Source of the DNA: Candidatus Saccharimonadota bacterium
Lineage (GTDB): Bacteria; Patescibacteriota; Saccharimonadia; Saccharimonadales; Saccharimonadaceae
NCBI GenBank assembly: GCA_009783305.1
Contig: WRHJ01000002.1
Coordinates: 23,097-87,096 of the forward strand
Reading direction: 5' to 3'
DNA length: 64,000 bases
Below, piece by piece: positions 15,634 to 32,328 of the stretch; position 1 is the stretch's first letter; each line of letters begins with the position of its first letter. The translations under genes were made by a program, and so were the position numbers. The notes under the pieces are model-generated. The model saw only the letters and a program-made list of their open reading frames with translations, was not told the origin of the DNA and ran no database searches.

Positions 15634-16158
15634 TTAGAATATGCTGCTCAACACAAAGTTCACAATCGCAAAGGCCAAGATCGCTACCACTAAACCAATA
15701 ATACCGTACATAATTGTATCTTTGGCTTTTTTCACCTTGCCAGAATCACCTTGAGAAGTAGAGTATTGAATACCGCCAAGAATTACCATGACCACAGCAA
15801 TAATACCAACTACGAAAATCACCGTGTTGATAATAGTCTGGATAATCGAGTTCAGGTTAGCAGTCTCGCAACCATCCGGGTTTGATGCCAATGACGCCGC
15901 CTTAGTACAATCTGCCGATGTTTTACCCCACATATCATATGACGTAGCACTGATTTTTATCTTCGACGCGCCACATTTCCTAGGAAAACGAGCATCTGGC
16001 GGAGTCTCGCCGTCAGAGCTATTGCCAATATAAACGCCCGCATAATCACCGGTCTGGGCACCTGTAACACAGGCCGCCGCAAACGCTGGCATCGCGACAA
16101 ATACTGCCATCCCTAACGCCAACACCCCTCCTCTTACAATATTCTTTATCTTACTCAT
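15634..16158 (-). CDS. VirB2/TrbC-like pilin paralog
   Basis: GGIQYSTSQGDSGKVKKAKDTIMYGIIGLVVAILAFAIVNFVL. Confidence 0.8.
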   Translation of the reverse strand: MSKIKNIVRGGVLALGMAVFVAMPAFAAACVTGAQTGDYAGVYIGNSSDGETPPDARFPRKCGASKIKISATSYDMWGKTSADCTKAASLASNPDGCETANLNSIIQTIINTVIFVVGIIAVVMVILGGIQYSTSQGDSGKVKKAKDTIMYGIIGLVVAILAFAIVNFVLSSIF

Positions 16159-16199
16159 CTTTTAGTTTCTCCGTTCTTATTATTACTTTTTAATCTTTC

Positions 16200-16607
16200 C
16201 TAAAACACACTGCTTAACACAAAATTCACAATCGTGAAAGCCAACAGTGCTACAATTAAACCAATAATACCGTACATAATAGTATCTTTTGCCTTCTTCA
16301 CCTTGCCAGAATCACCCTGAGAGGTCGAGTACTGAATTCCACCCAGAATAATCATGACCACAGCAATAATACCGACTACGAAAATCACCGTGTTGATAAT
16401 AGCTTGAATCACATTCATTAAATCCACGCTGCCACCATCTGGATCAACTGCATCCGCACCCGCCGCCGCACATCCTGCCGACGATGAAGCCGTCGAGCCA
16501 TCCGGGCACGTCACATCAGCCCAAGCTGGCAGAGCCACACCCGCCACGCCGACTACCATCAACACAGTCCCCATCACAATTTTTAATTTATTACTTAGTT
16601 TGGTCAT
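16200..16607 (-). CDS. VirB2/TrbC-like pilin paralog
   Basis: Same GGIQYSTSQGDSGKVKKAKDTIMYGIIGL core. Confidence 0.8.
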   Translation of the reverse strand: MTKLSNKLKIVMGTVLMVVGVAGVALPAWADVTCPDGSTASSSAGCAAAGADAVDPDGGSVDLMNVIQAIINTVIFVVGIIAVVMIILGGIQYSTSQGDSGKVKKAKDTIMYGIIGLIVALLAFTIVNFVLSSVF

Positions 16608-16661
16608 TATATTATCTCCGTTTTTCTTAATTCCTATCATACCATGATGCTTACAGTTGCG

Positions 16662-16976
16662 CTACCGCATTATCGCGTCCAACGCAAAACTTACAATCGC
16701 AAAGGCCAAGATCGCTACCACCAAACCGATGATACCGTACATAATCGTGTCCTTTGCCTTCTTTACCTTGCCCGAGTCTCCCTGCGACATAGCGTAGTTG
16801 ACGCCTCCCACAATAATCATAATCGCTGCAATAATACCAACTAGAAAAATCACAGTTATCACAATTGGCGCTATCACATCTTCCACGGATGACACGCCCC
16901 CACCTCCAGTCGCATCATTTATGCTATCTTCCACCGAACCGGATACATCTCCCAATATCATCAATATTTTACTCAT
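16662..16976 (-). CDS. VirB2/TrbC-like pilin paralog (no obvious signal peptide)
   Basis: GGVNYAMSQGDSGKVKKAKDTIMYGIIGL core. Confidence 0.78.
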   Translation of the reverse strand: MSKILMILGDVSGSVEDSINDATGGGGVSSVEDVIAPIVITVIFLVGIIAAIMIIVGGVNYAMSQGDSGKVKKAKDTIMYGIIGLVVAILAFAIVSFALDAIMR

Positions 16977-17377
16977 TGAATTCCTCCCAAAACAAACGCC
17001 GTAATCGCAAATGCCAACAAAGTCACAATCAGCCCGATTATCGCGTACATAATTGTGTCCTTTGCCTTCTTCACCTTGCCAGGATCACCTTGAGAAATTG
17101 AATACCTCACACCACCAAATATAATCACCCCTGCCGCAATAATCCCCGCAATCGAAAACACCGCCATCACCGCACCCGGAACCTTATCAAATACTGTTTG
17201 CCCACCGCCACCTCCACATCCAGCCGCTATATATGCATCAGCATCAGCAATTGGGTCCAATTGACTGCAAATCGGATCTTCCCACGCCATTACCGATACG
17301 GGCCACAGCACCGAAATCCCCATCACCAAAACCAATAACATCATCAGAACTTTTTTCATCTCGCTGGCACCTCCCAT
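16973..17377 (-). CDS. VirB2/TrbC-like pilin paralog
   Basis: GGVRYSISQGDPGKVKKAKDTIMYAIIGL core; overlaps neighbour. Confidence 0.78.
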   Translation of the reverse strand: MGGASEMKKVLMMLLVLVMGISVLWPVSVMAWEDPICSQLDPIADADAYIAAGCGGGGGQTVFDKVPGAVMAVFSIAGIIAAGVIIFGGVRYSISQGDPGKVKKAKDTIMYAIIGLIVTLLAFAITAFVLGGIQ

Positions 17378-17799
17378 TTCTCACCACTATCGCCATCATC
17401 TGCATCATCTGCATCCTCACTAGTACCGCCCGATCCTCCGCCGCCAGTAGGCGACCTCGTATCATCAAACGCTCCTGTCACAAACATCACGATCGCCGCT
17501 GCCGCTGTCGCAATAATCAAACCAATTATTGTATACGTAATCGTTTGCTGCGCCTTCTTCGTCCTCTCCGGCTCGCCCTCACTCGTCATATACTGAATTC
17601 CCGCCACGACAATTATTATCGCCGCCACCACGCCAATCGCAAAATACGCCCAACCTAACACTGCCGACACTATGCCTGCGCCCGTCATATCGCACGGGTC
17701 AATCATAATTCCAGAACCCGGAGGATCCTCATATGGCGCGCACGGCAAATTAGGACTACTAATCCCAGCCGCCATCGCCTTCAAAATCATACCTATCAT
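17356..17799 (-). CDS. VirB2/TrbC-like pilin paralog with Gly/Asp-rich tail
   Basis: AGIQYMTSEGEPERTKKAQQTITYTIIGL; C-term GGGGSGGTSEDADDADDGDSGEK. Confidence 0.72.
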   Translation of the reverse strand: MIGMILKAMAAGISSPNLPCAPYEDPPGSGIMIDPCDMTGAGIVSAVLGWAYFAIGVVAAIIIVVAGIQYMTSEGEPERTKKAQQTITYTIIGLIIATAAAAIVMFVTGAFDDTRSPTGGGGSGGTSEDADDADDGDSGEKWEVPAR

Positions 17800-18245
17800 A
17801 TTCCCATCGCCTCCGTTATCACGCCGACAATCGTGCTAACTATTAACGACGCCAAAATACATATAATCAGCCCAACCACCGCCGATATCACCGTCCGCTT
17901 ACCCTTCGCAATCCGTCCCGGATCACCTCTCGCCAACACATATAAGTATCCGCCATACACAATGAATCCAAGCGCCAAATATCCTACCAAATTAAACAGT
18001 ATATTTAGTATATTCAAGACTATTGCCCACACAAACCCAGCCACCTCTCCATCCCCTTGTGGCGTCTTTATCACGCACTTGTCACCCTGAGCTTTTACCA
18101 AATTGTAATACCATGGCCGAAACGTCAAAAATGACGTTTGGCAATCATCATCCGTCAATGCCGATGCCGGCGTTGGCGACAGTAGCCCAACCCCCAAACC
18201 AACCGTTATGACAACCATTATTATCATTAGTAGATGTTTTATCAT
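17796..18245 (-). CDS. VirB2/TrbC-like pilin paralog
   Basis: GGYLYVLARGDPGRIAKGKRTVISAVVGL; start overlaps upstream stop (ATGA). Confidence 0.72.
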   Translation of the reverse strand: MIKHLLMIIMVVITVGLGVGLLSPTPASALTDDDCQTSFLTFRPWYYNLVKAQGDKCVIKTPQGDGEVAGFVWAIVLNILNILFNLVGYLALGFIVYGGYLYVLARGDPGRIAKGKRTVISAVVGLIICILASLIVSTIVGVITEAMGI

Positions 18246-18643
18246 GCCTGTATTGTAAACCCTGGTATCAACCAATTCAAGATTAGCCATATCAAAGCCC
18301 AAACAATCAAGCCAATCACTATATTAAATATTCGACTCTTTGCCTTTACGATCTGCTCCTCTTTATCACGTGCCGTCATCCACTGAATACCACTTATCAC
18401 TATACCAACCAAGGCTAAAATACCTATACCCATAGTCATAATGTTCAATATCAATTCCAATATCCTCCAGACTCCGTTCTCACCGCACCAGTCCGATGGC
18501 AAAATCCCCACACACTCATCCGCCGCAGAAACTGGCGAAGTCAACACAACAGATACGACAGCAGCCATAACCACTACGCAACCCAAAAACCTCAGCCATC
18601 TATTCTTTGTCTGAGACTTAAGATTCTGCTTAAAATCACTCAT
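18242..18643 (-). CDS. VirB2/TrbC-like pilin paralog
   Basis: SGIQWMTARDKEEQIVKAKSRIFNIVIGL core. Confidence 0.72.
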   Translation of the reverse strand: MSDFKQNLKSQTKNRWLRFLGCVVVMAAVVSVVLTSPVSAADECVGILPSDWCGENGVWRILELILNIMTMGIGILALVGIVISGIQWMTARDKEEQIVKAKSRIFNIVIGLIVWALIWLILNWLIPGFTIQA

Positions 18644-18698
18644 ATCTATCCAAATTATAACACAACTAAAAAGCCCAACAAAAACACTATAAAATCTC

Positions 18699-18727
18699 TT
18701 GACTAAAGTGCTTATGTGTGCTATAAT
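18699..18727 (+). promoter_or_regulatory. Promoter TTGACT-N17-TATAAT
   Basis: TTGACT 18699-18704, TGTGC-TATAAT 18722-18727, ATG at 18738. Confidence 0.8.
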
Positions 18728-18737
18728 TAGCCAAGCC

Positions 18738-21700
18738 ATGAAAAAGAGGCTTATTTATTTTCTGTGCTCCATATTTGCCGTGCTCGGCCTCCTTTTTGCT
18801 ACACAAGATGTCTTTGCTGACCCCCCCACAACTAACCCAGATACCTCAGTTATCATTCCGGTTGACCCAGGCGATCCTAATGATGACATCACTGACGACC
18901 CCGAAACCGACGAGGAAGTCACCACTGACGCCACCTGCTATGACCAAGTCGGCGGCATTGGCTGGCTCATCTGTCCGGTCACCGGCACTCTAGCCAAAGC
19001 CATTGACTCGGTCTACGGGATTATTGAAAGTCTTCTCAAAGTCAATCCCATCTCTACCGATCAAGACTCTCCCATCTATCTAGTCTGGGAGTACATCCGC
19101 AACATCACAAACGTTATCTTCATTATCTTCCTCCTGGTAGTCATTTACTCTCAAGTGACTGGTTTTGGCATCACCAACTATGGCATCAAGAAAGTCTTGC
19201 CGCGCATCATTATCGCCGCCATCCTCGTCAATCTCAGCTACATCATCTGCGCCTTAGCCGTCGACGTTAGCAATATCCTCGGTAGCGGACTTGGCGCCGT
19301 CTTTACCAATATCTACGAAATTGCCACCGCCGGCGAAACTGTCAGTTATTCCGTCGGTGAAATTGCCGGCACCATACTTGGCACTGTCGCCGTTGGCGCT
19401 GGCGCCACTATAGCTGGTCTCGCCATCGTCGGCGGAATAGGCGCCGCCCTCTGGATGCTTGTCCCTGTCATCTTCGCCGGCATCGTCGCCGTCATCACTG
19501 CACTCATCGTCTTGGCTGCCCGCCAAGCTCTTATCATTATCCTCATCATGATTGCCCCTCTTGCCTTCGTTGCCTACCTTCTCCCCAACACCGAAAAATG
19601 GTTCAAAAAATGGAAAGATATCCTCCTGCAAATGCTCATTTTCTACCCCATGTTCGCCGTTCTATTTTCCGCCTCTCAGCTTGCCAGCTGGGTCATCATC
19701 AGTAGTGCCACCAACGTTTTCGGCATTATTCTCGGCGTCGCCGTTCAAGTCCTCCCCCTTTTCTTCACCTTCTCGCTCATGAAGATGAGCAATACCATCC
19801 TCGGCAACATCAGCACCGGCATCCAAAAATTCACCTCTCCTGCTCAAAAGGGAATTGGTACCTGGGCAGACTCGCGCCGTTCCACCTCAAAGGCCAGGCA
19901 TATTGCCGCCAATCGCACTCCATCTGCTCGTCTCAGCAATTACTTAGCCTACCGCAAAACCCTCCGCGAAACTGATACTAGTGATGCGGAAAAGATCATA
20001 GAAGGTCGCGCCACCATCCGTGCTCAACGCAAAATTTCCGGTGGCTTCGATGCCAACGACCCAACTAAGGTTCTCCGCGCCAACCGCTACACTCGCCGTG
20101 CCAAGACTGCCAGCACCACCTCTAGCCTTGCCGACACTGCTAAAAGCGATACTTCTAACCTTCTTGGTGCTTACGGCTCTTCCTACGGAGGCGCTCACAC
20201 TGCAAATCTCGCCAACTCTCGCCGCCTGCCACTTCGCGCTTTCGATAAGCATCTATCAAACGTCGACCAACGCCTCGCCGACGCCGGCGCCGAAGCCTAC
20301 CTGCATGCCAACCGTACCGCCTTCACTGCCGAAAGCAACGAAGAGGCCGACTGGAGTTACCTATTCAAAACTTACGCTGATGCCGCCAATGGCGGATATG
20401 GCACTTATAATTACAGGCGCTGGCTCAATGCTTCCGCCGGCGAACTTGGTCCTGCCGGCATCAGTAGCGTACTCGGCCAAATCATCGCCAAAGCCGACGC
20501 TGCCGAGCAACGCCGCCGCAAATACGACCGCATCCTGCTTAACAAATATGGCCACGACAAACGCACTTTCCGCAACATGGTCGTCGGTTATTATGTCGAT
20601 GATGATGGTTTCGCCACCGATAAAGACGGTGAGCATGTCATGTTCTATGATCCGATCTTACGCAAAAATCGCAAGGAGCTCGTTCCTGGCGAGCTACTCC
20701 TCAAGGACCCCTCAAAACTCGTCCGCTACGACGTCATCGACGAAGATGGCAAACCTTACTACGACTGGAAAGATCAAAAAGGCAATTTCCTCATGCGCGT
20801 CTACCGCGAAGACGTCCCTTACATGAAAGAAGCCTTTAGTAGTGACGATATCCCCATCAACGATCCTATCAACAGTCTCTACGCCATTCTTGCCGGCATT
20901 TATCCCGACGACCCAGCAAACGAAGGCATTGGGCTCGCTAACTTCAGCACTACGCTCGGCCGTGCTCTTCAAGCTGCCAACTACAAGGAAAAGACCGCTG
21001 GTATGGGCGCTCAAGCTATCGCCAGTATTTCAAGGCGCCAAATCAAGAACCACGCCCAACTCGGCATCGAATTTCTCGACAACATAAAGAAAACCGGTAA
21101 AGCCAGTAACTTTAATACTCAAGATGCTATTCACATCAAACAATTTGCCGCCTACCTTGACCCGGACAACTGGCCGATTCTCTTCCCGGAAGAGGGCATC
21201 ATGAGCTATGTCAATGTTAACGGCGAACCTCTCGAGGGCTTGGATGAGGACGGCAATAAAGTCAAAGCCAACATCGCTACCTACGAAGAAAAGATGCGAC
21301 AAGTCAAATCAAAATATCTTTTCCCGGTCGTCAAAAAATTCGCCACCTTCCTTGCTCGTGTCACATCTAATACAGTCGACAATCAAAAGCCTGGCGCCGG
21401 CGACGAGCTGGCTAAATTAAAGGATCTCCTCGATGAACATTGGAGCGGCGCAGAAGCTGTTAGGGAAGGGTTCACCGATGCCTACGCCCAAGATTCCAAC
21501 TTTATAGAAACCTCACGCGCCGTCCGCCAACGCCTCCAAACTCTTCCGGACATAATTCCCACCCATGAATCTGACATTCGTCTCATCATAGACGAGCTCT
21601 TCAATGCAGGTAACGATATCGATTCCATCGCTTCCACTATCCGCTACCACTTCGGAGATCACCCGCGCCTTGGTGCAGCTCTCGAAGAATTCGATCAATT

Positions 21701-21782
21701 CATGCAAGATAACCCCTACATCGAAGAAGAGCAGCTCCTCGAAGCCGTCCTGGACATCATCCAGCCATACCTCAGCGACTAG
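18738..21782 (+). CDS. VirB6/TrbL-like polytopic T4SS membrane protein with ~500-aa soluble C-terminal domain
   Basis: Signal peptide, multiple TM segments, ARQALIIILIMIAPLAFVAYLLPNTEKWFKKW motif. Confidence 0.8.
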   Translation: MKKRLIYFLCSIFAVLGLLFATQDVFADPPTTNPDTSVIIPVDPGDPNDDITDDPETDEEVTTDATCYDQVGGIGWLICPVTGTLAKAIDSVYGIIESLLKVNPISTDQDSPIYLVWEYIRNITNVIFIIFLLVVIYSQVTGFGITNYGIKKVLPRIIIAAILVNLSYIICALAVDVSNILGSGLGAVFTNIYEIATAGETVSYSVGEIAGTILGTVAVGAGATIAGLAIVGGIGAALWMLVPVIFAGIVAVITALIVLAARQALIIILIMIAPLAFVAYLLPNTEKWFKKWKDILLQMLIFYPMFAVLFSASQLASWVIISSATNVFGIILGVAVQVLPLFFTFSLMKMSNTILGNISTGIQKFTSPAQKGIGTWADSRRSTSKARHIAANRTPSARLSNYLAYRKTLRETDTSDAEKIIEGRATIRAQRKISGGFDANDPTKVLRANRYTRRAKTASTTSSLADTAKSDTSNLLGAYGSSYGGAHTANLANSRRLPLRAFDKHLSNVDQRLADAGAEAYLHANRTAFTAESNEEADWSYLFKTYADAANGGYGTYNYRRWLNASAGELGPAGISSVLGQIIAKADAAEQRRRKYDRILLNKYGHDKRTFRNMVVGYYVDDDGFATDKDGEHVMFYDPILRKNRKELVPGELLLKDPSKLVRYDVIDEDGKPYYDWKDQKGNFLMRVYREDVPYMKEAFSSDDIPINDPINSLYAILAGIYPDDPANEGIGLANFSTTLGRALQAANYKEKTAGMGAQAIASISRRQIKNHAQLGIEFLDNIKKTGKASNFNTQDAIHIKQFAAYLDPDNWPILFPEEGIMSYVNVNGEPLEGLDEDGNKVKANIATYEEKMRQVKSKYLFPVVKKFATFLARVTSNTVDNQKPGAGDELAKLKDLLDEHWSGAEAVREGFTDAYAQDSNFIETSRAVRQRLQTLPDIIPTHESDIRLIIDELFNAGNDIDSIASTIRYHFGDHPRLGAALEEFDQFMQDNPYIEEEQLLEAVLDIIQPYLSD

Positions 21783-21859: not shown

Positions 21860-22390
21860 GTGAAAGCATTGTTGATCACGCCCACGATCACATTAGTCCT
21901 CATCGCCCTGGTCTCCATAGCAATCGTCTATATCGCAGCAGACCAAGTAACTAAATACTGCAAAAATCGGGAACGTCCCATCATGGCCGATTCAACCACA
22001 GATTTCGTCGTCCCCCTCTGCTGTTTAGCCCACATCGTCGCCTGCGCTTTCTTGGCATTTTGGACTTCCTACGGGCTGGTTTTCATCATTATCGTAATGG
22101 TCGTCTCAGTACTAGCCATTGCTATAGTAGCCCAACTCAAACAGCAGGACAAAGCAAAGGCTGCAAGTAAAGCTCGGACAGAACAAGAGAGGCACCAAAA
22201 ACAATGGGATCTAGACCATTGCAAGCACCTCAACGTCAAAAACTGTGTCTGTTTATCCTGCGGGAGCAGAGTACATCGTCCTAGAATATACCTCGGCAAA
22301 AGTGGATCATATCGCGAATGGAAGTGCCAAACCTGCGGGACAACCGGACGAGACAAAGAAGATGACGACAATTTCCTCCCCCTCAGATAG
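21860..22390 (+). CDS. Membrane protein with C-terminal zinc-ribbon-like domain
   Basis: Two to three TM segments then CVCLSCGSRVH...WKCQTCGTTG. Confidence 0.6.
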   Translation: MKALLITPTITLVLIALVSIAIVYIAADQVTKYCKNRERPIMADSTTDFVVPLCCLAHIVACAFLAFWTSYGLVFIIIVMVVSVLAIAIVAQLKQQDKAKAASKARTEQERHQKQWDLDHCKHLNVKNCVCLSCGSRVHRPRIYLGKSGSYREWKCQTCGTTGRDKEDDDNFLPLR

Positions 22391-22409
22391 CTACGCGTCT
22401 ATCTCAAGC

Positions 22410-22441
22410 CCTCCATACAGGAGGGTTTTTCTTTTTACGAG
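22410..22441 (+). terminator. Intrinsic terminator
   Basis: CCCTCCatacaGGAGGGTTTTTCTTTTT. Confidence 0.85.
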
Positions 22442-22456
22442 TCTTCATCAAAATGA

Positions 22457-22521
22457 TTGACCTTTTACGCTAAATATGATAGAATAATAAAAGGAGGTCC
22501 TCTTGCAATCGCAAGGGGACC
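22457..22521 (+). promoter_or_regulatory. Promoter TTGACC-N17-TAGAAT followed by a 5'-terminal hairpin
   Basis: Hairpin GGTCC-T-CTTGC-AATC-GCAAG-G-GGACC at 22496-22521. Confidence 0.65.
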
Positions 22522-22561: not shown

Positions 22562-24064
22562 ATGAAACAGTTTAGTGACGCCGCAAACTCTAAAAAATTA
22601 CTCGATCAAATCATCGAGGAGCTCAGAGAAGAAACTGCCTGGTCACGCCTCTATCAAACTTGTATTGACGCCGCCAGCGCTGGACCAAATTCCCAAGCGT
22701 ATCAAAACTTCTTCGGCCCTATCGTCGACGAATTCGGAACAGCCAGCATCAGCAGCGTCATTGGCAAGATCATTGCCAGACTTGATGTCGCCGAGCAACA
22801 TCAAAGACAATGTGCCCGGATCCTGCTTGACCGCTACGGCCACGACAAACGCGCTTTCCGCAACATGATCGTCGGCTACTGCGTCGACGATGATGGCTTT
22901 GCCACTGATGAGTCCGGCGAATGTATCACATTCTACGATCCGGTCCTGCAACGGCATCGCAGAGAACTCGTTCCTGGCGAACTACTTCTTAAGGACCCCT
23001 CAAAACTCGTCCGCTACGATGTCATCGATGAAGACGGCAACCCCTACTATGACTGGAGGGATCCAAAAGGGAACTTCCTCATGCGCGTCTGCAAAAATTA
23101 TGCTGCCCTCATCAAGGAAGCGCTCAGTACCGATGATATCGCCCTCAATGATCCGATCAACAATCTCTACGCCATCTTAGCGGGCATGTACCCTGAAGCA
23201 CACGATGGCATTGGTCTCGCCAATTTTAGCTACACCATCGCCCATGCCCTACAAACTGCCAACTATCGAGAAAAAATTGCCGGTATGGGCACCCAAGCTA
23301 TCGCTTCTATCTCCAAGCGTCAAATCAAGAACCACGCCCAACTCAGCATCGAACTTCTCGACAACATAAAGAAGACCGGCAAAGTCGGCAACTTCAATAC
23401 TCAAGACGCCTTCCACATCTACCAACTCAATACCTTACTCGACCCAAAGAACTGGCCCATCCTTTTCCCGGAAGAGGGCATCATGAGCTATGTCAACTTC
23501 AACGGCGAACCTCTGGCTGGCTTGGACGAGGACGGCAATAAAATCAAAGCCGACGTTGCTACCTACGAAGAAAAAATGCGGCAAGTCAAAACAAAATACC
23601 TCTTCCCTGTAGTCAAAAAAATCGCCGTATTCTTAGCCAACTACACCGAGACGGTTGCCGACAACCAAAAACCCGGCACAGCCGACCAGTTAGCTCGGAC
23701 TAAACAGTTGCTCGACGACCACTGGAGTGGCGCCGCAGCCATCAGGGAAGGGCGCATCGACGCTTATGCTCAAAACTCCAGCTTCCTCGAAACTTCCCGT
23801 GCCGTCCGCCAACGCCTCGAGATGTTGCCCAACGTCATTACCACTTGCGAACATGATATCCGTCTCATCGTAGACGAACTTTTCGGCGTCAGCAATGACA
23901 TCGACGATATCGTCACAACCCTGAGGTACCACTTCGGCAGCCACCTTCAACTCGGTAAAGCTATTGAGGAATTAGACGACTTCATCCGTGACAACCCATA
24001 TGTCGAAGAGGATGCACTCCTCGAAACGGTCCTTGAATTACTCCGAATCTACCTCGATGACTAA
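22562..24064 (+). CDS. Soluble stand-alone paralog of the VirB6-like C-terminal domain
   Basis: Near-collinear identity blocks with 18738-21782 product (ELVPGELLLKDPSKLVRYDVIDEDG; ILFPEEGIMSYVN.NGEPL.GLDEDGNK; TYEEKMRQVK.KYLFPVVKK); no TM segments. Confidence 0.85.
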   Translation: MKQFSDAANSKKLLDQIIEELREETAWSRLYQTCIDAASAGPNSQAYQNFFGPIVDEFGTASISSVIGKIIARLDVAEQHQRQCARILLDRYGHDKRAFRNMIVGYCVDDDGFATDESGECITFYDPVLQRHRRELVPGELLLKDPSKLVRYDVIDEDGNPYYDWRDPKGNFLMRVCKNYAALIKEALSTDDIALNDPINNLYAILAGMYPEAHDGIGLANFSYTIAHALQTANYREKIAGMGTQAIASISKRQIKNHAQLSIELLDNIKKTGKVGNFNTQDAFHIYQLNTLLDPKNWPILFPEEGIMSYVNFNGEPLAGLDEDGNKIKADVATYEEKMRQVKTKYLFPVVKKIAVFLANYTETVADNQKPGTADQLARTKQLLDDHWSGAAAIREGRIDAYAQNSSFLETSRAVRQRLEMLPNVITTCEHDIRLIVDELFGVSNDIDDIVTTLRYHFGSHLQLGKAIEELDDFIRDNPYVEEDALLETVLELLRIYLDD

Positions 24065-24141
24065 CTCACGAGAGTCAACCACAAAACCCGCCACCCGGCG
24101 GGTTTTTCCTTTGCAAAACAATAATGCTATAATTAATACAT

Positions 24142-25044
24142 ATGGCTCAGTACAAGGTCCCCCAAGACGTTGAGGCCGACGATAAACTTCTCGGTCCATT
24201 TACTTTTCGTCAATTTATTTACCTCATTATTGCCACCGGCATGATTGCCCTCGCTTGGGCGCTTTTCCAAGTTTTCCCGCTCCTAGTCATCATCCCTGTA
24301 CCCATCATCCTTTTTTTCGGAGCTCTCGCCTTGCCGCTCAAAAAAGACCAGCCCATGGAAACTTATCTAGCCGCTCTTGTTTCTTTTTATCTCAAGCCCC
24401 GCAAACGTTTCTGGGAACCCGGCCAATCCGAATCCACCATTCGCATTACCGCACCCAAGAAAGTTGAGGCCAGCCGCGTCAAAGACATCAGCCAAGCCGA
24501 AGCTAGCCATCGTCTTTCCTTCCTCGCCGAAATCGTCGACACCGAAGGTCACGCTATCAAGGGCCCCGCTTCTAGCCCTATCCGGGAAGAAGTTTTCGCC
24601 GAAGCCAACAACACCGCCGACATGTTTGAGCTTTCCAATTTCGACACCCACAGCCTCAATCAAATCATCAAAAATGACACTGCTGAGCGACACCAGGCTG
24701 CCGTGCAACAAATGAAGGCTGCCATCGAAAACGCTTCATCCCTCCACAATTCGGACGCCACTATCCAAAAATTCAGTGAACCCGTACCTCCACCCGTTTC
24801 CGCGCCTAACACCAACAGCGCCATCGTCCAACCGCTGGCTCCAGCGCCACCACCCGAAAGCGTCATTGTCCAACCCGAACCACAACCCAAATCCCAACCA
24901 GCTCCAGCTCCGACACCAGCCCAGCCTCATCCTGCTCTTGTCAATCTCGCCAACGACAAAGACCTCTCCATCCAAACTATCGCCCAAGAAGCCAACCGTC
25001 TCCAACAAAAGCACGACGACGAAGTCGTCATCTCGCTCCGTTAA
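24142..25044 (+). CDS. PrgI-family T4SS membrane protein with long Pro-rich tail
   Basis: MAQYKVPQDVEADDKLLGPFTFRQFIYLI... typical PrgI N-term. Confidence 0.85.
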   Translation: MAQYKVPQDVEADDKLLGPFTFRQFIYLIIATGMIALAWALFQVFPLLVIIPVPIILFFGALALPLKKDQPMETYLAALVSFYLKPRKRFWEPGQSESTIRITAPKKVEASRVKDISQAEASHRLSFLAEIVDTEGHAIKGPASSPIREEVFAEANNTADMFELSNFDTHSLNQIIKNDTAERHQAAVQQMKAAIENASSLHNSDATIQKFSEPVPPPVSAPNTNSAIVQPLAPAPPPESVIVQPEPQPKSQPAPAPTPAQPHPALVNLANDKDLSIQTIAQEANRLQQKHDDEVVISLR

Positions 25045-25091: not shown

Positions 25092-25895
25092 ATGAACCCG
25101 CAGCAACCTGTTCAGACAGCGCCCGGCGCACCAGCGCCTGCTACAGCTCCCATCGCCTCCGCCCCCGCCGCCGAACCCACCTCCGCAAACGTAGAAGCTC
25201 CTAGTAGTACGCAAGCCACCTTGCTCATTTCCGAAATCCGCGACTCCATGGTCATCATGAAAGACGGCTCTTTTCGCGCCGTCGTTGCTTGCAAATCCAT
25301 CAACTTCGACCTCATGTCCGAAACCGAACGCGAAGGCGTTGAGTACTCTTACCAAAACTTCCTTAACTCGCTCAACTTTACTACGCAGATCCTGATCCGT
25401 TCTCAACGTGTTGACATCGGTCCTTACATCGAACGGCTTACCGAAATCCGCCGCAACAACGACAATATGTTGCTCGGCGTTCTCATGGACGACTATATCA
25501 ACTTTATCGACGTCCTTTCCCAAGAAGCCAACATTATGGATAAGTCATTTTTCGTTATCGTTCCATACTATTCTTCCCCTGATGCTGAAAAAATCGTCCA
25601 ACAAACTAAAAATCTCTTTAAATCCTTCAGTAAAAATAAAGGCCCCATCATCACTAAGATTGATCGCGCTACTTATGACAAAGCTAACTCCGAAATGAAT
25701 ACGCGCATCGAAGCTGTCATCGCCGGACTATTCCAGATTGGTATCCAGTCCGTCCGCCTCAACACCAAAGAACTCGGGCAGCTCTACTATAACTTCAACA
25801 ACCCAGACACCGCCGTACGCGAGCCGCTCGGTGATTTCCGCCAAGTCACCGGACTCTATATCAAAAAAGGTGAAAAGGAGGCCACCAATGGCTAA
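25092..25895 (+). CDS. VirB4 N-terminal-like (TraC/CagE_TrbE-N-like) protein
   Basis: ISEIRDSMVIMKDGSFRAVVACKSINFDLMSETERE...; located directly upstream of the ATPase. Confidence 0.7.
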   Translation: MNPQQPVQTAPGAPAPATAPIASAPAAEPTSANVEAPSSTQATLLISEIRDSMVIMKDGSFRAVVACKSINFDLMSETEREGVEYSYQNFLNSLNFTTQILIRSQRVDIGPYIERLTEIRRNNDNMLLGVLMDDYINFIDVLSQEANIMDKSFFVIVPYYSSPDAEKIVQQTKNLFKSFSKNKGPIITKIDRATYDKANSEMNTRIEAVIAGLFQIGIQSVRLNTKELGQLYYNFNNPDTAVREPLGDFRQVTGLYIKKGEKEATNG

Positions 25896-27699
25896 ACTTA
25901 CCGCCGCCGAAATCGCCACCCAGGCCCAACTCCAAGAAGATGAGCAAATCCAAAAAGCCTTCGAGACCGGCATCACCACGCTCCGCGACCTCATCAGCCC
26001 ATCCAGCATCGAAATTCACAGTTCCTATTTCCGCCTCGGTACCAAGTATGGCCGCACCTTGTATGTCTACGGCTATCCTCGCTCTCTCTATACTGGATGG
26101 CTCAGTTCCATCATTAACATTGACGAAGTCATCGACATCTCCATGTACGTTTATCCAGTCGACACCGGAGTCGTCATGAAAAACCTCAGCAAAAAAGTCA
26201 CCCAGCTCGAAGCCAATATGTCTATCAACTCCGAAAAGGGCAAGATTCGCGATCCCGAACTCGAAGCCGCCATCAACGACGCCGAAGAGCTGCGCGATCA
26301 ACTTCAGCTCGGCGCCGAAAAGTTTTTCCGTTTCGGCCTATACATCACCATCTACGCCGATTCGCTCGACGAACTTCAGTTTGTCCAACACAAAATCGAA
26401 AATATTTTCGGCCAACAAATGATCTTCAGCAAAGTCGCCAGCAGTCAGCAAGAGCAGGGCATGAATTCTACCATGCCGCAATGTACCGACCAGCTTCAAA
26501 TTCGCCGCAATATGAATACCGGTGCCATCTCCACCAGCTTCCCCTTTACGTCTGCCGATCTTACCCAAGAAAAAGGTATTCTTTACGGCATCAATATGCA
26601 CAATAACGGTCTCGTTATCTTCGACCGCTTCAGTCTTGAAAACGCCAACATGGTCGTCTTCGCCAAATCCGGCGCCGGCAAATCTTTCACTGTCAAACTC
26701 GAAGCTCTCCGCTCCATGATGGTCGGTTCCGAAATTATCATCATTGACCCTGAAAACGAATACCAAAAACTCGCCGACGCCGTTGGCGGCAGCTATATTC
26801 GTCTCTCACTCAACTCCGACGTCCGCATTAATCCCTTCGATCTACCCAGAGTCATCGATACCGAAGACGCCAACGACGCTCTCCGCGCCAACCTTGTCAC
26901 TCTTCACGGTCTCTTCCGTCTCATGCTCGGCGGTACCCAACTCGGTCCCGGCGGCGTTCCTATTGCTGGACTCGGCCCCAATGAAGAAGCCGATCTCGAT
27001 CAGGCTCTCATCGACACTTACGCTCGCGCCGGCATCACCTCCGACCCCCTCACTCACAATTCCACGCCACCCACCATCATCAATCTATATGACACACTGC
27101 TCCACATGGGCGGCTCCGGACCCCAGCTCGCCCAGCGTCTCCGCAAGTACACCTCCGGCACTTTTGCCGGCATCTTCTCTCAGCAAAGCAATATCGATAT
27201 CAATAATCAGATGGTCGTCTTCAACATCCGCGACCTCGAAGATGAACTCCGCCCCGTTGCTATGTATATCGTTCTATCTCACGTTTGGAACACCGTCCGC
27301 GCCCAACAGAAAAAACGCCTGCTCATCGTTGACGAGGCCTGGCAGCTCATGAAATATGAGGACTCTGCCAACTTCCTCTTCTCCCTCGCCAAACGCGCTC
27401 GCAAATACTATCTTGGCCTCACCACTATTACCCAAGATGTCGAAGATTTCATGGGCAGCAAAATGGGCCGTGCCATCGTCGCCAACTCCAGCATCCAACT
27501 CCTCCTCAAACAATCTGCCTCCGCCGTCGACGTCTTATCTGATGTTTTCAAGCTCACCGACGAAGAGCGCAAGCGTCTCGCCAATTTCCCAGTCGGCCAA
27601 GGCCTCTTCTTCGCCGGCCAAAATCACGTCCATATTCAAATCATTGCCAGCGAAACTGAAGAATCTCTCGTCACCACCAATCCTCAAGACAAAAGATAG
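25888..27699 (+). CDS. virB4: VirB4-family T4SS ATPase
   Basis: VVFAKSGAGKSFTVKLEALR Walker A, RLLIVDEAWQLM Walker B; start overlaps previous CDS by 8 nt. Confidence 0.9.
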   Translation: MAKLTAAEIATQAQLQEDEQIQKAFETGITTLRDLISPSSIEIHSSYFRLGTKYGRTLYVYGYPRSLYTGWLSSIINIDEVIDISMYVYPVDTGVVMKNLSKKVTQLEANMSINSEKGKIRDPELEAAINDAEELRDQLQLGAEKFFRFGLYITIYADSLDELQFVQHKIENIFGQQMIFSKVASSQQEQGMNSTMPQCTDQLQIRRNMNTGAISTSFPFTSADLTQEKGILYGINMHNNGLVIFDRFSLENANMVVFAKSGAGKSFTVKLEALRSMMVGSEIIIIDPENEYQKLADAVGGSYIRLSLNSDVRINPFDLPRVIDTEDANDALRANLVTLHGLFRLMLGGTQLGPGGVPIAGLGPNEEADLDQALIDTYARAGITSDPLTHNSTPPTIINLYDTLLHMGGSGPQLAQRLRKYTSGTFAGIFSQQSNIDINNQMVVFNIRDLEDELRPVAMYIVLSHVWNTVRAQQKKRLLIVDEAWQLMKYEDSANFLFSLAKRARKYYLGLTTITQDVEDFMGSKMGRAIVANSSIQLLLKQSASAVDVLSDVFKLTDEERKRLANFPVGQGLFFAGQNHVHIQIIASETEESLVTTNPQDKR

Positions 27700-27736: not shown

Positions 27737-30490
27737 ATGGCCTCCACACCAGATGATTCACGCATGGCAAAACACGATCCATACCGAGATATGGAGCATC
27801 ACCAAACACGACCTAGCGACATTAAACACGGCGACGCCCAAGACACACTCAAACAAGCTGAATCATCTGCCTCTTCCGTCTCCAAACGCTCCGTAGATTC
27901 CCGTTCCGCCGAAGATGTCACGCAGAACAGCCCCTTCAAAAACAACGTCAAGGGTCGACCTAATTCATCTACTAAAAAATCTAAAAAAGGCTTCTTCAAA
28001 GGCAAAGGACCTCTCACTTTTATCCTCTTCCTTATATTTGGCGGTGGCGCTCTCTTTTTCTCCGGCCAATCTATCCTCGGCCCCCACATTTCTAATCTTT
28101 ACACCCAAGCTACCGACGTTCAATTCACCAGCTACAGCCTCCGCAATCAACGCCTCTTCAGCTTCATGCTCGACGGCGGCTCCCAAATCCGTGTTACGCC
28201 TTTCTCTCAAAAATTTACCGTATTCACTCCCTACATGAAAGGGCGTCTCGCCAATAATGGTATTGAAGTCGGGCATCTCGACGCCGACGGCAATTTCCTA
28301 TCCGGCGACGCTTTCGCTGGCAAATCGCGCGCCCTACTTTTTAACAATGAGGTTATTCCTGCGGCCGATTTTACAACCAGATACGCCCAAGATGCCAATT
28401 TCCGTGAGGCTTATTACAAAGCCAAACGCGGCCGCGTCGCCGGCTTTTTCGACGACGCCTCCGATTGGGTCTATCGCAAGCTCGGCCTCACTCGCAATAT
28501 TTTTGATGAATTTAAAACATCCGGCGACTCTACCGCCGACACTGACAATTTTAAGGATACTCTCGGTTCCCATCTCAATGGCACCGACACCGACATCAAT
28601 ACTGTCGGGCATGTCACTGATGACAATGGTACTCCCAACGATCCCTCCGATGACGTCACGCGCCCCGTTAAAAATGGTGACGACATCAATGTCAACAAGA
28701 TTGACGGTGAAACTCCTGAAATCAAAGCCCGCACCCTTGCCCTCAGTCTCGTCAATAAAGTCAGCAATGCCGGTAGTATGTTTTGTACTGCCATGCGCGT
28801 CGCCAATCTTGCCAACATTGCCGCTTTTGCCGCCTCTACCGCCAATTCCATTAACTACTTCATGGGGCTAACTGAAAATATCAGCAAAATGATGGCTGGC
28901 GAAGGCGATGCTTCCGCCATCAACGACGTCCTCAACTTCTTTACTACCTCGACCACCAGCGATGTCTCTAAAACTGACGCTTCTGGCAACACCGAGACCG
29001 TCCAAGTCACTGGTAGCCCCCTGCAAAGCAACGGTGCCCGCATTATTCTGGGCGGCGTTGTCCCCACCAAATATGAAACCGGCGCTTATTCCTTAGAGTC
29101 CATTACCTCCGGCGCCAAACGTACCGTCCTAGTCAACGGTGGCACCACAGTTGCTTGTGCCGGCGTCCGCGCTGCCTCTGCCGTCATTTCTCTCGTCGCC
29201 ACCGGCATCCCCGGCGGCGCTATCGCTCGAGTTGTCATCGGCATGATTGCCCAAACCATCGGCGGTATCGCCATCACTGGTATCATGGCTGCCATTGTCT
29301 CTGCCATCGTCCCCACTCTCGCGCGTATTCTCTTCACTAATGTCCTCGATGCTTACACTGGTATACCCGCCGGCGAACTTTATACTCAGGGAGCCGCTGC
29401 TGCCAACGCCCGCGTTGCACAAAACTCCAGCGCTTATACTCCAGGGTCTTCCGCCGCTATCGAGGCCAACGCCCGCGCTACCTCCATCGTCCTAGCCCAA
29501 GAAGCTGAAATTGACCGTAAAAACCGCAGTCCCTTCGACATCACCAGCAACAACACCTTCCTCGGCCATATTGTTGCCGGTTTCTGGCCACTCCTTACCA
29601 GTTCGTCTCCCACCGCACCCATCTCCACCCTTAGCAAACTCACGTCAAATGCTATTAGTAGTCTTCTCCCCGCTACCTTCGCAGCTGGTGCCGCCAATCC
29701 CACCTACACCACCATCTACGGTGATTGTCCAACCCTCGATGAAATTGGCGTCAAAGGCGACATTTACTGCAATGCCATCTTTACCTCCGACCTATCTACT
29801 ATCGATACTAAACCCGACGATGCCATCTATGAAAATCTTATTTCTCAAAACCTCAAATCCGACGGCTCCACCATCAAAGATGGCTCCGAGCTCGCCAAAT
29901 TCATCACTTTCTGTGCTAATCGCGAATCACCTTTCGGCATCACCGATGCCAACATCCTGAACGCCCTGCAGACTACCGGTGGTATTATTCTTAATAATAT
30001 CCCCATCCTCAACAACGTCATCGATCTCGTCAACGCCTCCGAAGATATCGCCAATATGGATTGGGCTACTGGCAAAAACTGCGTCAACACTAAAGAAAAT
30101 CCCCGTTGGGAAAATGAATTCAAATATTATCAACGCTACGTCGAAGATGCTCGCATCCTCGATCAGATGGGCGCTTTCGAAGACAGCGAAAATCCCGTTC
30201 TCGCTTTTCAAGAGAGATACTTCGAACAACACCCCCTCGATAATTCTCCCCAGGGCTACCTCGCCCGCATCACCGGTATGACCAAAGACGACGTTGCCTT
30301 CTTGCTTGAATTCATCGACTATTCCAATTTCCTCGCCGAATACGACCCCACTGGCCTTTACCCCGTCCTCGCCACTGTTAAAGAGGACGTCAAATTATCC
30401 TTTACTTCCAATCTCCTGTCAACAGAGCAGGGGGTTACTCTGGGGCATGTTATTTACGCTGATGTTCGCAACAGGAGTTACGCAGCATGA
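27737..30490 (+). CDS. Large T4SS-associated membrane protein (VirB6-like/CPR-specific)
   Basis: One N-term TM plus central hydrophobic cluster; embedded in the T4SS operon. Confidence 0.6.
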   Translation: MASTPDDSRMAKHDPYRDMEHHQTRPSDIKHGDAQDTLKQAESSASSVSKRSVDSRSAEDVTQNSPFKNNVKGRPNSSTKKSKKGFFKGKGPLTFILFLIFGGGALFFSGQSILGPHISNLYTQATDVQFTSYSLRNQRLFSFMLDGGSQIRVTPFSQKFTVFTPYMKGRLANNGIEVGHLDADGNFLSGDAFAGKSRALLFNNEVIPAADFTTRYAQDANFREAYYKAKRGRVAGFFDDASDWVYRKLGLTRNIFDEFKTSGDSTADTDNFKDTLGSHLNGTDTDINTVGHVTDDNGTPNDPSDDVTRPVKNGDDINVNKIDGETPEIKARTLALSLVNKVSNAGSMFCTAMRVANLANIAAFAASTANSINYFMGLTENISKMMAGEGDASAINDVLNFFTTSTTSDVSKTDASGNTETVQVTGSPLQSNGARIILGGVVPTKYETGAYSLESITSGAKRTVLVNGGTTVACAGVRAASAVISLVATGIPGGAIARVVIGMIAQTIGGIAITGIMAAIVSAIVPTLARILFTNVLDAYTGIPAGELYTQGAAAANARVAQNSSAYTPGSSAAIEANARATSIVLAQEAEIDRKNRSPFDITSNNTFLGHIVAGFWPLLTSSSPTAPISTLSKLTSNAISSLLPATFAAGAANPTYTTIYGDCPTLDEIGVKGDIYCNAIFTSDLSTIDTKPDDAIYENLISQNLKSDGSTIKDGSELAKFITFCANRESPFGITDANILNALQTTGGIILNNIPILNNVIDLVNASEDIANMDWATGKNCVNTKENPRWENEFKYYQRYVEDARILDQMGAFEDSENPVLAFQERYFEQHPLDNSPQGYLARITGMTKDDVAFLLEFIDYSNFLAEYDPTGLYPVLATVKEDVKLSFTSNLLSTEQGVTLGHVIYADVRNRSYAA

Positions 30491-32328
30491 AAACTCAGAT
30501 TCCATTTTTAAAGACCGTATCGAAACCCAAGAAAACCCTGCCCAAAGCAGGTTTTCCTGGCGTGGAAATGGGTCGTAAAAAATGGAATCTGAGTTTTCTA
30601 GCAGCCGCAGTCGTGTTGCTATGTTCCATTATCATGCCGTCAGTCTATGCCCTCGACGATTCCACCCTGGACATGTTCGATCAAAACGGCATCTATTACT
30701 ACAATCCCAGTGGCAATAACGGCTGCGTCTCCATTTCCACCACTCTAAGAGGCAAAGATATTATCGAAAAAACCTGGAATTTCTTTATTGACCAAGGTTT
30801 CAATGACGCTCAAGTCTCCGGTATCCTCGGCAACGCCAAGGCCGAATCCGGCTTCAGCCCCACTCGCTCTCTCAAGGGCACTTATTGGGGCATCTTCCAA
30901 TGGGGTGGCGGACGACAAGCCGCTCTATTCGAAAAACTCCGTGCCGCCGGTCTCGGCGCCTACCTCGACAGTGCCTACTGGCCAGCCGGTGCTGACAAAA
31001 ACATCCCTGCTGCAGACCTCGACGCTATCCTCCAAATCTCGCTCGAACATGCCATGTCCGAACCAGACTACGATTGGCAAAATGAACTCAAAAAGGCCCA
31101 CACGCCAGCCGAAGCCGCCGAAATCTTCCTCGTCCTCTTTGAACGCGCCATCGCCTCTCCCAAACACCCCGGTTCCGAAATCCTTTATTATGCGCCCTTC
31201 GCCGGTCTTGAATACCAAGGCGCTGCTGGTCGCCGCGACAACGCTGCGGCCTTCTTTAAGCAATACTCCGGCAACGGCATCAGCAACTTCAGCAACCCTA
31301 CCGCCACCGACGGCGCCAATGTCACCATTATCGGCGACTCCATCGCTGCCGGCGCTACCACTGCACTCCTCGTCAAATTCCCAGAGCTAGCAACCCACAA
31401 CATCAGCGTTGCCGTCAGTCGCACTTGGGCCGAAGGTATTGAAATTGCTAAAGCCATCCCCCTCCAAGACATTGTCGTTTTTGCACTCGGCACCAACACG
31501 CCAAATCTCGCACAAGCGGACATCGACTCTGCCATGTCCGCTATCGGCAACGGCCGTCGAGTCGTCTTTGTCACTAATTACGGCCCCGCCGGCTATACCT
31601 CCAACAACGCTCTCTTCCGCCAAGCTACCGTCAATTACCGCAATGTCATTATCGCCGATTGGGCTACGACCGTCTCCAAAGCTCCGCAAACTTACCTGCA
31701 AAATGACCAAGTCCATCCCAATTCAGCTGGCAACAATCTCTTTGCTGAAACCATTTTCAAGGCCATCAATAGCAACACCAACGCCAATGGCTGCAGCGTC
31801 ACTGGCGAATTCATCGCCCTCGTCCGAGCCTACGCCTGGCCCGACTTCCATCCCCCTCAATTTGTCGATCGTATGCCAGCCTACGCCAATGCTGTCACTA
31901 TTTCCATTAGTGAGGGCCGTTATGTCGGCGGCTCTGTTGCTGGTGTACCCGGCATTGACTGCGGCGGTTTTGTCACCGTTCTAGTTCAAAACAGCGGCCT
32001 CGCCCCAGAATATAACGGATACAATAGTAACACTGGTCCTCAAGAAAAATGGGTCGTTGATAATGGTTGGCTCCTGGTCAACGGCAGCCCCACCACCCCA
32101 GTCGACACTAGTCTTCTGCAACCCGGCGACGTCGCCTTTTCCGGCGGTACTGGCTACCAAAATAACGGTCACACCTTCATTTACGTCGGAGAAATCCCCG
32201 GCTTCAATAGCGTCATTGCCTCTGCATCCTATAGCACAACTGGCGAAAGCGGCCGTGCGCCCATGGCAGGCAGGGAAGACCTAATCGGCAGCGCCGGCTC
32301 ACCCGTACGCTGGTATCGGAAAAATTAA
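30487..32328 (+). CDS. Secreted multi-domain murein-active protein: phage-tail-lysozyme-like + SGNH hydrolase + CHAP/NlpC-P60-like
   Basis: ILGNAKAESGFSP...WGIFQWGGGRQ; VTIIGDSIAAG...HPNSAGN; GIDCGGFVTVLVQNSG...LLQPGDVAFSGG...GHTFIYVG. Confidence 0.75.
   Translation: MKTQIPFLKTVSKPKKTLPKAGFPGVEMGRKKWNLSFLAAAVVLLCSIIMPSVYALDDSTLDMFDQNGIYYYNPSGNNGCVSISTTLRGKDIIEKTWNFFIDQGFNDAQVSGILGNAKAESGFSPTRSLKGTYWGIFQWGGGRQAALFEKLRAAGLGAYLDSAYWPAGADKNIPAADLDAILQISLEHAMSEPDYDWQNELKKAHTPAEAAEIFLVLFERAIASPKHPGSEILYYAPFAGLEYQGAAGRRDNAAAFFKQYSGNGISNFSNPTATDGANVTIIGDSIAAGATTALLVKFPELATHNISVAVSRTWAEGIEIAKAIPLQDIVVFALGTNTPNLAQADIDSAMSAIGNGRRVVFVTNYGPAGYTSNNALFRQATVNYRNVIIADWATTVSKAPQTYLQNDQVHPNSAGNNLFAETIFKAINSNTNANGCSVTGEFIALVRAYAWPDFHPPQFVDRMPAYANAVTISISEGRYVGGSVAGVPGIDCGGFVTVLVQNSGLAPEYNGYNSNTGPQEKWVVDNGWLLVNGSPTTPVDTSLLQPGDVAFSGGTGYQNNGHTFIYVGEIPGFNSVIASASYSTTGESGRAPMAGREDLIGSAGSPVRWYRKN
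30490..30597. repeat. Perfect 20-bp inverted repeat with internal hairpin at the 5' end of CDS 30487
   Basis: AAAACTCAGATTCCATTTTT (30490-30509) / AAAAATGGAATCTGAGTTTT (30578-30597); inner GAAAACCCTGC/GCAGGTTTTC 30531-30556. Confidence 0.9.

Follow-up and report, generated by a model that had tools for sequence, protein, structure and literature searches.

What does a bacterium gain from encoding the C-terminal domain (CTD) of a VirB6-like protein twice, once fused to its membrane half and once as a free-standing gene, and is the free-standing ('solo') copy a working gene at all? The locus that raises this question lies in a stretch of 64,000 nucleotides, called the window here; it is part of a Saccharibacteria-like chromosome (788-kb genome, contig 2) of a tiny parasitic bacterium. 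The two copies are encoded as follows:

18738..21782 (+), extended VirB6-like protein of 1014 aa (P0002) with a signal peptide, a polytopic membrane half, a basic linker and a soluble CTD (membrane half ~50-57% identical to the VirB6 of the genus; AF2 model)
20331..21779 (+), the duplicated CTD within VirB6, residues 532-1014 (sequence comparison)
22562..24064 (+), solo VirB6 CTD paralog of 500 aa (P0001; 67% identity over 483 aa to VirB6 532-1014; no TM; dN 0.22, dS 1.34)

A previous reading of this DNA (the sequence-only reading) had described the solo product as a soluble paralog of the VirB6-like CTD, without a membrane part and collinear with the last ~500 residues in long identical blocks, and the comparison bears out each of these points. 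In a BLASTP alignment, residues 20-500 of the solo protein match residues 532-1014 of the VirB6-like protein with 326 of 483 positions identical (689 bits), collinearly and with two gap positions; the block ELVPGELLLKDPSKLVRYDVIDEDG is common to both. The solo ORF starts with ATG, and its product contains no hydrophobic segment (maximum 19-residue Kyte-Doolittle value 1.18, versus 2.94 in VirB6). It lacks the polytopic membrane part that characterises an extended VirB6, which its neighbour at 18738-21782 possesses, whilst it does have a large hydrophilic C-terminal domain homologous to VirB6, as both the pairwise match and the family alignment indicate. Judged by these comparisons, the solo protein, having no membrane part, does not count as a VirB6 but is a stand-alone extended-VirB6 domain.

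In an AlphaFold2 model of the full VirB6, the CTD core (residues ~570-900) is predicted with confidence, and a flexible, low-confidence linker (residues ~474-511) lies between it and the membrane half. The homologous segment starts just past this linker, with residue 532 at the margin of the folded CTD, so the boundary of the duplication is close to that of the domain. A model of the domain built with 21 sequences is mostly helical with a small β-hairpin region (pLDDT 80.8, pTM 0.69), and a fold search with it against PDB and BFVD returned nothing significant. The stretch following the last TM segment of VirB6 is basic (12 K/R versus 3 D/E); together with the absence of a hydrophobic N-terminus in the solo protein, this leads us to infer that the VirB6 CTD is cytoplasmic and that the solo gene, which by homology and by its lack of TM segments is a soluble copy of the CTD, encodes a presumably cytosolic protein.

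Reading from virB6 to virB4, the solo gene is embedded in the following order, with a ribosome site (AAGGAG) between the second hairpin and the solo ORF, which itself precedes the terminator:

21860..22390 (+), orphan ORF of 176 aa between virB6 and its neighbour, the solo gene, with N-terminal membrane segments and a CxxC-CxxC tail
22406..22428 (+), terminator-like hairpin 5′ of the solo gene (hairpin scan)
22457..22485 (+), promoter-like site, TTGACC-17-TAGAAT with TG (10/12, extended -10; promoter scan)
22496..22521 (+), strong hairpin in the solo gene's predicted 5′ leader (RNA z -3.3; 2/200 shuffles as stable)
24083..24106 (+), terminator 3′ of the solo gene, AAAACCCGCC ACCC GGCGGGTTTT (CCCGCC-N4-GGCGGG-T5; read directly in the sequence, not listed by the scan)
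24142..25044 (+), PrgI/VirB3-like protein, the next T4SS gene (PF12666, E 6e-13)
25738..27699 (+), VirB4 ATPase, a candidate partner of the domain (NF045971, E 1.2e-114)

The sequence-only reading had credited the solo gene with its own promoter, a terminator-bounded unit and a 5′ hairpin. The 5′ hairpin, the terminator-like hairpin before the gene and the terminator after it are present, and a promoter at 22457-22485 is plausible; promoter-like sites in the region are, however, as numerous as expected from shuffled sequence, so that the weight rests on the hairpins and the layout alone. On this footing, the solo gene apparently forms its own transcription unit between virB6 and prgI. The 176-aa ORF has no similarity to VirB6, and convincing relatives of it were absent from the 151 genomes searched. 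The adjacent PrgI/VirB3 and VirB4 genes are as expected of an MPF-FATA-like Patescibacteria T4SS locus, as is a VirB2-like pilin array of seven tandem, similar short ORFs at 15634-18739 (-), divergent from virB6 (PF18895, E 7e-9, for one ORF, the only one of the seven that was scanned). VirB4 is split into two ORFs, an N-terminal TrsD-like part (25092-25895) and the ATPase (25738-27699). Further along, 30487-32328 encodes a VirB1-like protein with Phage_lysozyme2, SGNH/GDSL-like and NlpC/P60-like regions, the last two below Pfam cut-offs.

The distribution of the domain was followed in the window's own genus (g1; 45 genomes including the window's) and in a sister Saccharibacteria genus (g2; 174 genomes), using one genome per species, mostly fragmented assemblies, the named ones being largely MAGs. 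Within g1 the domain occurs in the window's genome only and is absent from the other 44, whereas the VirB6 membrane half is present in 44 of the 45, mostly at ~50% identity. In g2 it is the ordinary C-terminal half of VirB6 in 46 genomes (open frames of ~900-1270 aa), and a 47th, G350, matches through a short solo ORF only. Across the order, 24 of 392 genomes match, nearly all of them g2, and the domain fades quickly outside the two genera. Named records that share this CTD type belong to Candidatus Saccharibacteria, and ruminant gut is the source of many. Credible relatives were absent from Pfam, NCBIfam, PHROG, PADLOC and PDB, and a plasmid collection gave no match; the best match of the PDB sequence search, an ATP synthase b-type chain (E 0.05), is not credible, and a weak resemblance to DUF3659 (best E 3e-4, 5/21 members) is not claimed. 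The statement of the sequence-only reading that the domain matches no family is accurate for the curated libraries and PDB and fails beyond them: by similarity the domain emerges as a family as soon as genomes of the sister genus are included in the search, and relatives there and in other genomes rule out a kind of gene exclusive to the window's genome. As to whether the pair is conserved, a question raised at the same time, the fused form recurs widely in g2, but within g1 a solo of this type is confined to this species; so patchy a distribution rules out that the solo protein is a core part.

The VirB6 of most other g1 genomes has a CTD of a different type, and common ancestry of the two types is unsupported (probability 0.1% in a profile-profile comparison). 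In a tree of membrane halves, the window's VirB6 falls within g1 (100/100), and midpoint rooting places it as sister to all other g1, with G025 next. Identity to the VirB6 of G025, a near relative, is 63% as far as residue ~415 and then collapses to unrelated sequence; as G025 carries the other CTD type, a CTD replacement occurred near residue 415. Two placements of this replacement fit the tree, one in the lineage leading to the window and one in the ancestor of all remaining g1. That the VirB6 CTDs of sister genera are of unrelated types, at times accompanied by a solo, suggests rapid diversification of the cytoplasmic side of the T4SS. The gap between virB6 and prgI holds no gene in G025; amongst the nine g2 loci read, it is empty in seven and contains unrelated small ORFs in G329 and G301 (L059:4895-5518 and L062:6571-7161). 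This gap may be a site for accessory genes.

New here are solo relatives of VirB6 CTDs in eight other genomes, seven of g2 (G317, G296, G326, G300, G350, G373 and G393) and G013 of g1, which cover both CTD types and several chromosomal sites. Those of g2 were sought with the domain profile as short open frames without a membrane half. Compared with VirB6 CTDs by BLASTP, the solo of G326 matches at 32% over 300 aa (E 9e-38) and that of G317 at 31% over 197 aa (E 2e-31); the remaining g2 solos are weaker (G350 E 5e-14, G296 E 3e-12, G300 E 2e-10, G373 E 4e-10, G393 E 6e-8), and the 309-aa solo of G013 matches the other, g1-type CTD (E 6e-11). Matches for G350, G373, G393 and G013 cover part of the domain only, and the G317 solo comprises a 327-aa and a 211-aa ORF that overlap in different frames, perhaps a single broken gene. 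The solos of G326, G300, G350 and G373 share one conserved chromosomal place, between what we take, from recognising the sequences, to be rnhB-like and ychF-like genes; near ychF in the window's genome, the neighbouring ORFs give no credible domain-profile match. The G317 solo lies between genes which we likewise recognise as presumably rlmH-like and rplJ/rplL-like, near dnaX and dnaB, and the surroundings of the G013 solo appear similar (presumably rlmH-rplJ-dnaX). Solos of two unrelated CTD types (L055:7496-8993 and L135:3861-4790) are in this way found in similar neighbourhoods in different genera. A third piece of the domain is present in the window's genome itself, as a stand-alone ORF of 96 aa (L004:7918-8208 (-)) whose match is confined to the C-terminal ~96 residues of the domain (41% identity with residues 403-498); it is flanked by lepA-like and uppP-like genes.

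In a CTD tree (five solo, 23 fused), well-supported branches force at least four changes of the solo label, and hence at least four separate solo origins; the solos fall near the VirB6 of their own lineage, with long branches leaving the exact placement unsure. Such repeated origins argue for a selected role of the soluble CTD. The recurrence speaks for a soluble form with a function but does not discriminate between the decoy, regulator, chaperone and effector that the sequence-only reading had entertained, and the tail of VirB6 probably has a task that is not tied to the membrane. Several of the solos in other genomes, being partial and very divergent, may have other roles.

One competing account is that the solo gene is a decaying duplicate of virB6. 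The sequence-only reading had itself held that a frameshifted second VirB6 with TM remnants would be just this; instead, the 500-aa frame is intact, neither the 176-aa ORF nor the DNA immediately 5′ of the solo gene shows a VirB6 membrane remnant, and the paralog claim stands. Nor is evolution neutral: the two copies share 71% DNA identity, and their dN and dS (NG86) correspond to an omega of ~0.17 (by ML, dS is saturated); that the frame is still fully open after so much silent change argues against decay. The solo protein also keeps all 33 columns that are invariant across 21 family members. It has nonetheless changed faster than the fused copy, with ~40 private changes versus ~20 in Tajima-type comparisons with most outgroups, a branch length of 0.46 versus 0.065 in the CTD tree, and 13 versus 6 of 61 conserved g2 columns lost (five common to both). 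The acceleration and the lost columns are what speaks for decay; the intact frame, the dN/dS and the repeated independent origin of solos elsewhere led us to reject it, and we regard this largely refuted account as highly improbable. The speed of change argues rather for a changed or relaxed role. It would also suit a solo protein that had drifted to an unrelated cytosolic job (neofunctionalisation) and lost contact with the T4SS, as would the siting of other solos away from T4SS genes, for example at the presumed rnhB-ychF place. The window's solo gene is, however, still within the T4SS gene order and its product 67% identical across the whole domain, and we consider such a drift unlikely.

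There are two further accounts. As a sequence store, the solo gene would be a spare CTD cassette that recombines into virB6, which would explain both the exchange of CTDs between lineages, seen in the break with G025, and the mild clustering of silent identity between the copies (p 0.03-0.07). That clustering is weak, though, and codon bias or constraint could produce it; the signal for gene conversion between the copies is weak; the solo gene is constrained as a coding sequence and comes with a start, a leader and a stop of its own; and the undecided direction of CTD change in the tree lends the idea no help, so that we give it little chance. Alternatively, the solo protein might be translocated by the T4SS, as effector or decoy, with the domain as docking module: docking at the base of the machine would be a plausible recruitment signal. 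Against this, it shows no toxin or enzyme fold, has no match in PDB, BFVD, Pfam or PADLOC and carries no extra cargo domain, and a role as substrate appears improbable.

The reading we favour, and hold tentatively, is that the solo protein binds the same cytoplasmic partner as the tethered CTD (VirB4/PrgI, or the VirB6 CTD itself) and modulates the T4SS. Duplication of the folded CTD, without the membrane half or the flexible linker, gave rise to the solo gene between virB6 and prgI, and with it to a soluble, probably cytosolic product. Unanchored, and with the family-invariant residues retained, this product would most likely dock where the tethered CTD docks, putatively the VirB4/PrgI base or a CTD oligomer. 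An accessory subunit, or a competing one, it would there adjust how the T4SS assembles or how active it is. A broader version is more doubtful: Saccharibacteria would time and again have evolved solo CTDs that modulate their essential T4SS in trans, with a fresh origin for each CTD type, and CTD and solo would then together constitute a fast-changing cytoplasmic control module.

CDI/Rhs polymorphic toxins, whose C-terminal regions differ between relatives, have orphan CT cassettes, spare C-terminal modules that follow the full-length gene. The window shows a similar arrangement, the C-terminal region of its VirB6 differing from that of relatives and a spare C-terminal module lying downstream. 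It differs in that the solo protein is without a toxin domain (no Pfam, PADLOC or fold match) and that the solo gene has its own start and leader and is under constraint; no immunity gene was recognised, and the ORF next to the solo gene is the 176-aa orphan.

The T4SS of Patescibacteria is described as a monoderm-type machine (MPF-FATA kind) with a variable pilin array (PMC12102498) and as essential for epibiotic growth of the cultured Southlakia epibionticum (PMC10633639). The window resembles these systems in its VirB2-like pilin array, VirB6, PrgI/VirB3, VirB4 and VirB1-like hydrolase; the keyword passages from both papers hold no mention of a free-standing VirB6 CTD. Since a cultured Saccharibacterium needs this machine to live as an epibiont (PMC10633639), a natural modulator of it would be informative. 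For the extended VirB6 subfamily, the contribution of the extra domains is not known (T4SS review, PMC12857230). The window's fused copy resembles these proteins, with several TM helices and a large C-proximal hydrophilic domain; the locus differs from them in that the hydrophilic domain is here also encoded alone, soluble, by a separate gene. Such a naturally soluble copy of the CTD offers a direct handle on the role of the extra domain, through purification, structure determination and a search for partners without the membrane half.
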